64,000 nucleotides of DNA, from assembly GCA_028821605.1 (NCBI GenBank), contig JAPPFM010000007.1, forward strand, positions 1 through 64,000, given 5' to 3'. Shown one piece after another: positions 55,206 to 64,000 of this stretch; within the stretch, counting starts at the first letter, position 1, and each line of letters begins with the position of its first letter. The stretch comes from Candidatus Poribacteria bacterium. GTDB taxonomy: Bacteria; Poribacteria; WGA-4E; WGA-3G. The position numbers and the translations under genes are program-made. Under the pieces are notes generated by a model that was given only the letters and a program-made list of their open reading frames with translations, did not search any database and was not told the DNA's origin.

Positions 55206-58200
55206 ATGCCAGATTTCAATATCAAACCGACACACAAGCCCATCAAAAACTACTATACTGAACTCGAAAAGTATGCGCAACACGGTGCCGAAAATGAAGG
55301 CACCGTCCGTGCTGCATTCCAGAACCTCCTTCAGCACTACTGTCACCAATCCAACCTTACGCTCCTCTGCGAAAAAAGTCTCTACACGCCGGAGAAAAGA
55401 CGGATAACCCCCGACGGTGAAGTCGTCGACGCCTTCGGCTTACCACACGGCTATTGGGAGGCGAAAGACACCCAGGACGATCTAAACGTTGAAGCGGACA
55501 AGAAATTCGCCGCAGGCTATCCCTCGAAAAATATCGTCATCCAGTCTCCCACCCACGCGCTTCTCTATCAGCACGGACGACTGCAGCTGGACCTTGACAT
55601 CAGCGAACCGAGAAACCTCATTCAAGTGCTCCAGACCTTCTTCACCTATCAGGAAGAGAATATCTCCGCATGGCATACCGCGGTCTCTGAATTCAAAGAC
55701 ACGGTGCCGGAACTCGGTGACAAATTGGCAGCGTTAATCGAAACGGAACGCCAAAACAATCCACATTTTCAGGAAGCATTCGTCAGTTTTCATCAACAGT
55801 GTCAAACCTCTATCAATCCGAACCTCTCTGTCGCCGCTGTAGAGGAGATGCTCATCCAGCATCTGTTGACAGAACGTATCTTCCGCACCGTCTTTGATAA
55901 TCCCGACTTTACACGCCGAAATATTATCGCCCGTGAAATTGAAAATGTTATTGACGTGCTAACCGAGCGGACACTCAACCGCTCTGAATTCCTCCGCCCT
56001 TTGGAGCCGTTCTACGCTGCAATTGAGAAAACCGCAGCGACTATCACTGATTTCTCACAGAAACAGGGTTTTCTCAACACCGTCTACGAGCAATTCTTTC
56101 AAGGTTTCTCCGTCAAGGTAGCGGATACGCACGGCATCGTCTACACACCGCAGCCAATTGTTGATTTTATGGTGAAAAGTGTAGAAAACATCTTACAGAC
56201 CGAGTTTGATCGTTCACTTTCGGATAGTGGTGTGCATATTATCGACCCATTCGTCGGCACCGGTAACTTCATCGTCCGCATTATGCAGGAGCTTGATCCC
56301 ATCTCACTGGAGCGAAAATACACCGCCGATCCGCCGGAACTCCAATGCAACGAAGTAATGCTCCTACCTTACTATATCGCCAATCTCAATATTGAGCAGC
56401 AGTTTTACACCGCGACGAACCGCTATGCCCCTTATGAAGGTATCTGTCTGGTAGACACGTTTGAGATTGCAGAGGAACGGCAGCTGCAGCTATTCACCCC
56501 TGCCAATACAGAGCGAGTTGAAAAACAGAAGGGGACTCCGATGTTCGTCGTCATCGGCAATCCACCTTACAATGCCGGGCAGGTCAACGAAAACGACAAT
56601 AACAAAAATCGGAAGTATGAGACGATGGACCAGCGGATTGCGGACACCTATGCAAAAGATTCTAAGGCAACGCTCAGAAATGCGCTTTACGATCCATACA
56701 TAAAAGCAATTCGGTGGGCGTTGGATAGGATTGGCGAGGAAGGCGTTGTTGCCTTCGTAACGAACAATAACTTTTTCAGTGGTACGGCATTTGATGGCAT
56801 GCGGAAACACCTCGCCGAAGACTGCGACACAATCTATATCCTCGACTTGGGCGGAAATGCACGAAAAGGGTTAAAAGTCTCCGATGCCAACGTATTCGGG
56901 ATTCGCGTCGGCGTGAGTGTCAACCTATTTGTGAAGAAAAAGGGAAAACCATCGGAATTGCCGCGTATCTTCTACTATCGTACTGACGATTTGTGGGCTA
57001 AAAAACAAAAGTTTGATTTTCTCAATGAAAATAAACACACAGGCGGTATTACGTGGGAATCCATTCAACCCGATGCACGATATACATGGTTCACCAAAGG
57101 ACTCCGCTCTGGTTTTAATGCCTTTATTCCGATGGGAACCAAGGAAGCAAAAGCCCACAAAGGTGAAGCAGTAGATGTACTTTTCAAAACATATAGCAAC
57201 GGTGTGAAAACCAATCGTGATGCTTGGGTTTATAACTTCAACCGCAACACACTTGCCGAAAATATGAGTAGAATGATTGGCAATTACAACACAGGGGTTG
57301 CTCAGTGGGGACAACGGACAGATCGAGAGGCTAACCTTGATGATTTTGTAGTTTCTGATGAAACAAAAATCAAGTGGAGTTCAACTTTAAAACAGAAGTT
57401 GCAGAGCGGTCAAACAGCCGCGTTTACAGAGGCAAAAATCCGACGATCCGTTTATCGACCTTTTGCGAAATATAATCTCTACTTTGATCGAATGATGACT
57501 GACCGAGTTCTTGTATTTCCTTCTATTTTCCCTACACCCCAAACTGAAGAGGAAAATCGAGTGATCTGTGTCAATGTGACACCGGAAAGACCTTTTACTT
57601 GTCTGTTAGTTGATTGCATTCCTAATCTTGTAGTGACAGGCGGTTTTGGATCTCCGACCCAATGCTTCCCCTTCTACACCTACGATGAGGACGGTACAAA
57701 CCGACGCGAAAACATCACCGATTGGGCATTGGCAGAGTTTCGAGCGCATTATAACGACGACACAATCACCAAGTGGGACATCTTCCACTATACCTACGGA
57801 CTCTTACATCATCCCGACTACCGCGAAACATATCAGGCGAACCTCAAACGCGATCTGCCACATATCCCGTTCGCCAAAGATTTCTGGGGATTTGCGGAGG
57901 CAGGCGCGCAGTTAGCGGACCTCCACATCAACTACGAATCCCAACCCGAATACGATAAACTGAAGTTCATCCAAACCCCAGATGTGCCGCTTAATTGGCG
58001 TGTTGAGAAGATGAAACTCTCCAAAGACAAAACCTCGCTCATCTACAACGACTTCCTGACGCTTGGGAATATTCCCACAAAGGCGTTTGACTATCGGCTC
58101 GGTACCCGCTCCGCGTTAGAATGGGTGGTAGATCAGTATCGCGTCAAGACCGACAAACGGAGTGGCATCGTCAACGACCCGAACCGTGCAGACGACCCGC

Positions 58201-58286
58201 AGTACATCGTCAAGTTGATTGGGAAGGTGATTACGGTGAGCTTGGAGATGGTAGATATTGTTAACGAACTACCTGCCTTAAAGTAG
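55206..58286 (+). CDS. Single-chain restriction-modification enzyme (type ISP-like, no helicase)
   Basis: 1026 aa. N-terminal nuclease-type site: Asp75 in EVVDAFGLP and Glu85-x-Lys87 in YWEAKD, a PD-(D/E)XK pattern. A helical connector follows (about 150-320), then an adenine-N6 methyltransferase with motif I DPFVGTGNF (about 347-355) and catalytic NPPY near 452. The C-terminal 400 residues should be the target-recognition domain. Type ISP enzymes such as LlaBIII are about 1500 aa with an SF2 helicase between nuclease and methylase; no helicase motif is seen here. It is therefore closer to a type IIG-like layout. It should methylate host DNA and cut unmodified DNA. Confidence 0.83.
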   Translation: MPDFNIKPTHKPIKNYYTELEKYAQHGAENEGTVRAAFQNLLQHYCHQSNLTLLCEKSLYTPEKRRITPDGEVVDAFGLPHGYWEAKDTQDDLNVEADKKFAAGYPSKNIVIQSPTHALLYQHGRLQLDLDISEPRNLIQVLQTFFTYQEENISAWHTAVSEFKDTVPELGDKLAALIETERQNNPHFQEAFVSFHQQCQTSINPNLSVAAVEEMLIQHLLTERIFRTVFDNPDFTRRNIIAREIENVIDVLTERTLNRSEFLRPLEPFYAAIEKTAATITDFSQKQGFLNTVYEQFFQGFSVKVADTHGIVYTPQPIVDFMVKSVENILQTEFDRSLSDSGVHIIDPFVGTGNFIVRIMQELDPISLERKYTADPPELQCNEVMLLPYYIANLNIEQQFYTATNRYAPYEGICLVDTFEIAEERQLQLFTPANTERVEKQKGTPMFVVIGNPPYNAGQVNENDNNKNRKYETMDQRIADTYAKDSKATLRNALYDPYIKAIRWALDRIGEEGVVAFVTNNNFFSGTAFDGMRKHLAEDCDTIYILDLGGNARKGLKVSDANVFGIRVGVSVNLFVKKKGKPSELPRIFYYRTDDLWAKKQKFDFLNENKHTGGITWESIQPDARYTWFTKGLRSGFNAFIPMGTKEAKAHKGEAVDVLFKTYSNGVKTNRDAWVYNFNRNTLAENMSRMIGNYNTGVAQWGQRTDREANLDDFVVSDETKIKWSSTLKQKLQSGQTAAFTEAKIRRSVYRPFAKYNLYFDRMMTDRVLVFPSIFPTPQTEEENRVICVNVTPERPFTCLLVDCIPNLVVTGGFGSPTQCFPFYTYDEDGTNRRENITDWALAEFRAHYNDDTITKWDIFHYTYGLLHHPDYRETYQANLKRDLPHIPFAKDFWGFAEAGAQLADLHINYESQPEYDKLKFIQTPDVPLNWRVEKMKLSKDKTSLIYNDFLTLGNIPTKAFDYRLGTRSALEWVVDQYRVKTDKRSGIVNDPNRADDPQYIVKLIGKVITVSLEMVDIVNELPALK

Positions 58287-63446: not shown

Positions 63447-63632
63447 TTATCTCCTGTCCGCATCGGGACAAGTGACCGGTTGACACGGCGGCGGTTGTAT
63501 TTGAGGGTGACAAATTTCGGGGGTCTGACGACAGGATTCATGCGCAGCAAGTGTAAGGTGCAGCGCGACGCTGAGTGTCGCCACGAGGAAGAAAAGCGCG
63601 ATGGGGACCCACCGCAAGAGGCGTGTTTTCAT
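63447..63632 (-). CDS. Small exported Cys/Pro-rich protein
   Basis: 61 aa, first gene of the minus-strand operon, with AAGGAG at a good distance before the ATG. A hydrophobic N-terminal stretch (about 7-30, ending LTLAA) acts as a signal or anchor, and the rest is short and rich in Cys and Pro (CRQTPEICHPQIQPPPCQPVTC). The Cys content matches the style of the large secreted protein downstream. Too small for a family call, but strand, ribosome site and position support it as real. Confidence 0.65.
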   Translation of the reverse strand: MKTRLLRWVPIALFFLVATLSVALHLTLAAHESCRQTPEICHPQIQPPPCQPVTCPDADRR

Positions 63633-63719
63633 GTTAGGGACTCCTTTTTAAGGGGACTGGCCCCTATAAATAACACGCAACGAAAATCGTTAGCTGCTAC
63701 AATAGAAACCAGCACTGTC

Positions 63720-63839
63720 AAAAATATGCCTTTTGGCAGTGTTACGCGTGGCAGGTGGTAGGACACCTGCTGCGCACCCCGAAAACGGGGAGGCTGCCCT
63801 GACGCGATCCACGCGGTGTCAGCGAATATGCTTCAGCAT
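63720..63839 (-). ncRNA. Structured RNA leader, riboswitch/attenuator candidate
   Basis: Read on the minus strand from a start near 63852: hairpin GCAT/ATGC (63839-63828); stem CTGAC/GTCAG with inner GCG/CGC (63822-63799); then a junction closed by GGCAG (minus strand of 63798-63794) and CTGCC (63739-63735) holding hairpins CGGGG/CCCCG (63790-63777) and a 7-bp GCAGGTG/CACCTGC (63770-63751). The CTGCC strand can instead pair as TGCC-AAAA-GGCA (63738-63727), followed by TATTTTT, a terminator-like fold. The two pairings exclude each other. No known riboswitch class matches that I can recall. Plus-strand transcription cannot be excluded: TGCTACAAT at 63695-63703 is an extended -10. Confidence 0.55.
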
Positions 63840-63858
63840 GAAATCCACGTCAACATAA

Positions 63859-63887
63859 AGTGTACCGTAAAATACAAAAATTGTCAA
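63859..63887 (-). promoter_or_regulatory. Promoter of the exported-protein operon
   Basis: On the minus strand TTGACA (63887-63882), a 17-base spacer and TACACT (63864-63859). Start near 63852 gives a 220-base leader ahead of the first gene at 63632, covering the structured region. Confidence 0.65.
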
Positions 63888-64000
63888 ATTTTAAATGGGA
63901 AAATATAACTTTTACCGCGCGGCTGGCGAAACACTTTCCAAATCCTGCCGAATTTTACCATTTTTTCAGGGGTCCCTAATGAAGTTTGCGAAAGTAAATC

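Follow-up and report, generated by a model that had tools for sequence, protein, structure and literature searches.

The window analysed here, a 64,000-nt stretch of a Candidatus Poribacteria contig, carries on its minus strand, between 63632 and 58315, an operon-like series of genes for exported proteins: a 61-aa peptide, a WD40 protein, a 338-aa lipoprotein-like protein with a His-rich GHWHGDVWH motif, and a 725-aa Cys/His-rich protein. The last listed protein of the run weakly resembles protein C of the type II secretion system (24.2 bits, below the cut-off). Convergent with this operon, positions 55206-58286 of the plus strand encode a large enzyme whose PADLOC match is to type IIG/ISP restriction-methyltransferases. 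The features between the promoter of the exported-protein genes and the WD40 gene are collected in Table 1; the ATG that follows the leader lies at 63632 on the minus strand.

Table 1. Features of the leader locus in the window, with the strand on which each is read and the basis for its assignment.
Feature	Positions	Strand	Basis
Sense (mRNA) promoter	63859..63887	-	TTGACA 63887-63882, 17 bp spacer, TACACT 63864-63859; consensus scan
Structured mRNA leader (sense RNA)	63633..63852	-	z = -5.8; covariance-model match 63654-63800, 123 bits
P0, 5' hairpin TGACGTGGAT..ATCGCGTCA	63800..63853	-	paired in diverse sequences
Strand 1 (GGCAG), pairs as P1 with CTGCC 63735-63739, rival of P4	63794..63798	-	pairing
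P2 hairpin CCCCG-TTTT-CGGGG	63777..63790	-	both-sided changes; G-U:A-C 37:4
P3, antisense-read hairpin, GCAGGTG stem, hypervariable loop	63746..63775	+	G-U:A-C 12:126 on the sense strand
P4, antisense-read hairpin, hypervariable loop 63724-63730	63713..63741	+	G-U:A-C 2:171
P5, long leader hairpin	63657..63712	-	G-U:A-C 114:12
Putative extended -10 promoter TGCTACAAT for the antisense RNA, within P5	63695..63703	+	conserved motif
Predicted antisense RNA, start near 63710	63710..63800	+	unbroken 13-bp and 12-bp hairpins, z = -5.3
Shine-Dalgarno AAAGGAG	63641..63647	-	spacing identical in window-type copies
Secreted-peptide ORF, 61 aa, signal peptide and Cys-rich tail	63447..63632	-	ORF list; kept in 9 window-type copies
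Next gene, WD40 protein with N-terminal hydrophobic segment	62088..63404	-	Pfam WD40

A sequence-only reading of this DNA had proposed a minus-strand -35/-10 pair followed by a structured leader. The promoter was confirmed, and the mRNA is predicted to start near 63852. Many homologous copies carry a promoter of the same, sigma-70-like type just 5' of the RNA, separated by a few bases from GGCAG or from P0. In a subset of them (L038, L083, L100, L103, L111) the -10 is bracketed by a palindrome, CTATTTTCGTC ... GACGAAATAG, which is operator-like and could serve a shared transcription factor. Further 5' of the sense promoter, positions 63939-64000 (to 64054 in copy L001) form the best-conserved part of the window-type copies, with 93% identity to contig C25; this segment holds a possible 23-codon plus-strand ORF after AGGGGTCCCTA, and a 42-nt piece of it was found alone on contig C55.

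The hairpins that had been listed are all present, namely CCCCG-AAAA-CGGGG at 63777-63790, the GCAGGTG stem within 63746-63775 and the GGCAG/CTGCC stem (63794-63798 with 63735-63739). The leader is thus real, but the extent first given to it was too short, the conserved part running on through the hairpin at 63657-63712 to the Shine-Dalgarno sequence and the ATG. Its fold goes beyond chance, with z-scores of -5.8 for 63633-63853 and -3.8 for 63710-63853 on the minus strand, and of -5.3 for 63710-63800 on the plus strand.

That the leader belongs to no known class also held: the whole window had no match in Rfam 15 at the gathering cut-off, and a permissive Rfam 15 search with the window region and 20 homologous loci returned only chance-level matches, none above cut-off. 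Within its own genome the element has a copy of ~610 bp, 89% identical and with different flanks (contig C25), and, on contig C2, a core copy of 75% identity that precedes an exported Ig-like protein. Of 60 relatives searched at the DNA level, 31 have the core. We aligned 32 copies with MAFFT (alignment A2), using no structure model, and then built the covariance model R1. Matches to R1 occur in 38/38 genomes of the genus and 57/59 of one Poribacteria family, as many as 19 in a single genome; 26 genomes of the phylum outside that family gave none. A search of 84,980 species genomes for the exact P4 pattern retrieved 73 stretches, every one titled Poribacteria. The pattern had no match among viral contigs, and a viral origin was rejected on this last result. 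A literature search on riboswitches and on noncoding or regulatory RNA of Poribacteria found nothing. The leader is a member of an undescribed RNA family.

A second, related RNA family occurs in the same genome in five copies (L219-L223, on contigs C8, C10, C44, C49 and C58) and in 38 of 85 genomes of the phylum. It carries TTGGCATCC... and keeps the P3/P4/P5 layout together with TGATATAAT/TGATATACT on the opposite strand; its 3' domain is longer, and the arms of this domain interleave in a pseudoknot-like manner (GGAGACGG..CCGTCTCC with ATTGCCAG..CTGGCAAT).

Covariation in homologues, the check that the sequence-only reading had named for its stems, was found in both alignments. In the MAFFT alignment 97.2% of cells are paired and 10 pairs are changed on both sides, against 4.1 +/- 1.3 in shuffles, none of 500 shuffles reaching the covariation score. 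Among 98 model-aligned matches, an alignment that leans towards structure, both-sided change was seen in 26 of 34 pairs and 94.9% of cells are paired, compared with at most 46% in slid controls. P0 covaries between classes (11 representatives, -10.5 kcal/mol with their own arms and -6.6 with swapped ones), and P5 occurs in two unrelated sequence forms, CTGGTTTCTAT/ATrGrrACCAG and CTAACCTAA/TTAGGTTAG, both of which are paired. Many long-leader copies carry an extra 3' domain, whose helix P6 shows covariation from class to class as well; in the divergent class it folds at -11.7 kcal/mol with its own arms and at -1.7 to -8.1 kcal/mol with swapped ones. P1, with 93.4% of cells paired and hardly any compensatory change, varies too little to be proven.

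The arms of P4 have alternative partners. The P4 5' arm finds its complement in GGCAG, close to the 5' end, and the 3' arm in an invariant CTGTC (strand 4), which lies 0-2 nt after P6 in all 30 copies aligned for it; the strands can therefore pair either 1:2 and 3:4 or 2:3. Over 88 copies, the median energy difference between the competing pairings GGCAG/CTGCC (P1) and CTGCC..GACAG (P4) is 1.7 kcal/mol; in the window copy, which is without strand 4, P4 is favoured by ~3 kcal/mol.

Of the mutually exclusive folds proposed at the outset, this competition is conserved, but the terminator and a riboswitch-like read-out are unsupported. The supposed TGCC-AAAA-GGCA hairpin followed by TATTTTT can be read in the letters of the window (63720-63738) and is absent from the closest copies (CTGCCAAAAGGAATGG in L002, CTGCCAAAAGATGTAG in L010); the AAAA and TTTT within it belong to opposite arms of the conserved helix P4. 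No strict intrinsic terminator was found between the RNA and the start codon in any of 52 copies. A loose scan gave 9/52, with 1.1 expected, mostly hairpins of the 3' domain, and this excess vanished under strict criteria. Exposure of the Shine-Dalgarno sequence is equal in the P1 and P4 states of the window-type copies. Masking of the ribosome-binding site by a freed strand 1 (GGGC with UCCC after the Shine-Dalgarno), seen in one minimum-free-energy fold, was discarded, the ensemble holding almost none of it in L001. Neither a conserved terminator nor Shine-Dalgarno masking, as expected of a riboswitch or attenuator, was therefore found tied to the alternative fold.

A side remark of the sequence-only reading, that the RNA could also be read in the other direction, proved the most informative of its claims. 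The changes in a hairpin selected as RNA pass through G-U pairs, which are A-C mismatches on the complementary strand. We counted both kinds per helix over 97 copies, mismatch columns included, the key mismatch columns having been left unpaired in the covariance model and hence not fitted to it. The polarity of P2 and P5 points to the minus (mRNA) strand and that of P3 and P4 to the plus strand (counts in Table 1), P3 and P4 jointly showing 297 A-C against 14 G-U on the sense strand. Columns 84/123 hold C-A 60, U-A 16, C-G 14 and U-G 0 times, and columns 139/180 hold C-A 80, C-G 10, U-A 2 and U-G 0 times; on the plus strand both become an ordinary series of A-U, G-U and G-C. The A-C excess thus marks P3 and P4 as G-U-containing hairpins of the opposite strand. 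An early overall count of G-U against A-C (162:63) had favoured the mRNA strand alone, and was reversed for P3 and P4 once it was split by helix and the mismatch columns were included. Fold energies were compared as well: P4 is stabler as plus-strand RNA in 95/97 copies, P3 in 81/97 and both together in 91/97, and P5 is stabler as minus-strand RNA in 91/97, P2 being undecided. Judged by this A-C excess and these energies, an opposite-strand RNA is under structural selection of its own. Counting G-U against A-C helix by helix is a cheap test of which strand owns each hairpin in a bidirectional locus.

The invariant nucleotides of the P5 internal loop, which might otherwise pass for a ligand pocket, spell TGnTAyAAT on the plus strand, the extended -10 that had been glimpsed in the window and that is present in all copies. 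At least 96 of 97 copies retain TG and TA; the third position of the -10 is C or T in most of them and is usually followed by AAT. All 97 copies agree with TGNTATAAT in 6-8 of its 8 positions, and no -35 element could be recognised by eye. The motif is a putative promoter inside the target transcript, where a cis-encoded antisense RNA would have it. From the motif at 63695-63703, transcription would begin near 63710 and run at once into P4 and then P3. An intrinsic terminator that could give this RNA a defined 3' end occurs within ~180 nt in 2 of 97 copies.

The loops of P3 and P4 are the fastest-changing part of the element. Among nine window-type copies, pairwise differences per site amount to 0.48 in the P3 loop and 0.67 in the P4 loop, the latter near random, against 0-24% in the stems, 17% in the apical part of P5, 7-15% in the flanks and 24% at the ORF start; in the methylase class described below the loops differ by 43% (P3) and 49% (P4), compared with 0-28% elsewhere. 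Loop variability was gauged here against neighbouring sites, the copies not being independent. As many as 95 of 97 P3/P4 loop pairs are distinct. Most antisense P3 loops are 7 nt long, start with Y-U and have a purine as their sixth base. The loops carry the YUNR U-turn motif of cis-encoded antisense RNAs, about half of them being without it: it occurs in 56% of antisense P3 loops versus 32% after shuffling (0/500), with no enrichment in sense P3 loops, and in 45% of antisense P4 loops versus 33% (1/500), sense P4 loops being also somewhat enriched (29% versus 19%). The enrichment may stem in part from base composition at the loop ends. A YUNR U-turn is known to speed up the pairing of sense and antisense RNAs (PMC6562991).

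The next same-strand gene with a Shine-Dalgarno sequence starts ~15 to several hundred nt after P5. Outside a class of copies that precedes DNA methylases, 44 of 50 downstream proteins have a strongly hydrophobic N-terminus, which upholds the placement ahead of exported-protein genes first seen in the window. For proteins of at least 150 aa the figure is 28/32 versus 56/103 control ORFs (Fisher p = 7e-4), the controls being crude, with operon partners and possibly spurious ORFs included. Domains of the downstream proteins include WD40, LRR, cadherin/Ig, laminin-G and TonB. Poribacteria, which are uncultured and dominant among sponge symbionts, are known for their many exported eukaryote-like repeat proteins (PMC3909097). 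The second class of copies precedes an N6_N4 DNA methylase, and further copies precede defence genes, namely type I and III methylase, HmaC-like and UvrD/PD-(D/E)XK genes. In the methylase class (L012-L037 and others) the N6_N4 methylase and its leader are near genus-wide, usually with one copy per genome; in some copies (e.g. L025, L035) the gene seems to be disrupted or to have given way to other ORFs.

Taken together, family membership, structure, promoter motifs, strand-specific hairpin selection, loop divergence and gene context, all supported by the sequences, lead us to consider it probable that every leader is under the control of a cis-encoded antisense RNA of its own, which variable loops insulate from the others. 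The minus strand would produce an mRNA leader (P0, P2, P5, then Shine-Dalgarno and ATG) for an exported-protein gene, and the plus strand a small antisense RNA from the extended -10 inside the P5 loop, beginning with the two long hairpins P4 and P3. The loops of these hairpins, complementary to the same loops in the leader, would start sense-antisense pairing, and this would reduce expression of the gene downstream; given the fast divergence of the loops, each copy would be mainly under its own antisense RNA. The P4 strands of the leader could also pair with the flanks, forming P1 and, in copies that keep the 3' domain, P8; such pairing would keep them accessible to the antisense RNA. We infer that the locus makes both RNAs, which then pair by way of their loops, and that pairing represses rather than activates. 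Since no terminator on either strand and no Shine-Dalgarno-masking switch was found, the repressing step is left to candidates: RNase III cleavage of the duplex would come first, followed by refolding of the leader and promoter interference.

A leader acting on the mRNA strand only, riboswitch-, protein-binding- or attenuator-like, in which a ligand or protein would choose P1 (with P8) or P4 and so set expression, could also account for the strong covariation, the near-isoenergetic P1 and P4, the CTGTC kept in 30/30 copies with the 3' domain and the Shine-Dalgarno and ATG downstream. We hold this to be unlikely, given that the polarity of P3 and P4 is that of the other strand, that the sole conserved pocket, the P5 internal loop, reads as a promoter, and that strict terminators (0/52) and Shine-Dalgarno masking were not found. 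The promoter motif, the stable hairpins and the variable loops of the plus-strand RNA would equally suit a family of trans-acting small RNAs that target other mRNAs through these loops, overlap with the leader being secondary; yet the minus strand is under structural selection of its own (P2, P5) and then leads into Shine-Dalgarno, ATG and exported genes, making this account quite improbable. Both polarities, together with the hidden promoter and the hypervariable loops, are most simply explained by a cis-encoded antisense RNA opposite a structured leader.

The opposite-strand features would be left unexplained by a put- or EAR/LoaP-like signal for processive antitermination in accessory operons, which could be suspected from the position of the element at the 5' end of the transcript, the variable distance to the gene and the surface and defence targets; moreover, each of 13/13 genomes has a single NusG-domain match, with no RfaH/LoaP-like paralogue by NusG family, and we regard such a signal as very improbable. 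Scarcely credible in our view is a mobile repeat or duplicated promoter cassette devoid of RNA function, even with the 610-bp, 89% identical copy between different flanks and an upstream limit largely common to window-type copies, because covariation was reached by none of 500 shuffles, wobble is strand-specific, the Shine-Dalgarno and ATG are conserved, viral contigs gave no match, and the common segment is a promoter-leader-ORF unit, as for a duplicated gene. An integron attC site or transposon end seems unlikely, the strand-specific G-U tolerance arguing for RNA.

Control by a private antisense RNA, our preferred reading, can be extended to a wider proposal, which we put forward tentatively and at slightly less than even confidence: phylum-restricted, multicopy sense/antisense modules in which two fast-diverging loops give each secreted-protein or defence gene its private switch, built on a bistable leader (1:2 and 3:4 versus 2:3). 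If true, one RNA module would control host-facing and defence genes copy by copy, and its fast loop divergence would be a natural experiment in RNA-RNA specificity.

Among known systems, the E. coli type I toxin-antitoxin loci Ibs-Sib and Zor-Orz are likewise multicopy chromosomal sense/antisense pairs, with specificity from short variable recognition regions that tell near-identical antisense RNAs apart (PMC4147584, PMC3919570). In Poribacteria, another phylum, the antisense RNA would lie opposite the 5' leader and not the toxin ORF, and the targets, instead of being one small hydrophobic, toxic membrane protein as in type I systems, are diverse, ~60 to >1000 aa long, and exported or DNA-modifying (DNA methylases). 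Among plasmid copy-control antisense RNAs, ColE1 RNAI and R1 CopA have the antisense promoter inside the target leader and stem-loops with short loops, changes in which create new specificity. The recognition loops of plasmid copy-control RNAs (pIP501 RNAIII) and of hok/Sok share the YUNR U-turn (PMC6562991). Unlike those systems, the Poribacteria element is chromosomal and dispersed, with up to 19 copies per genome and a leader without an attenuator terminator, and selection for pairing in P3 and P4 favours the antisense strand. Orphan riboswitch candidates (PMC7266159) resemble it as structured, covarying 5' leaders with competing helices and functionally linked genes; here, however, no terminator or Shine-Dalgarno-masking platform was found, and the only conserved unpaired pocket is the promoter site of the opposite strand. 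The new point of the Poribacteria element is its sense/antisense polarity.
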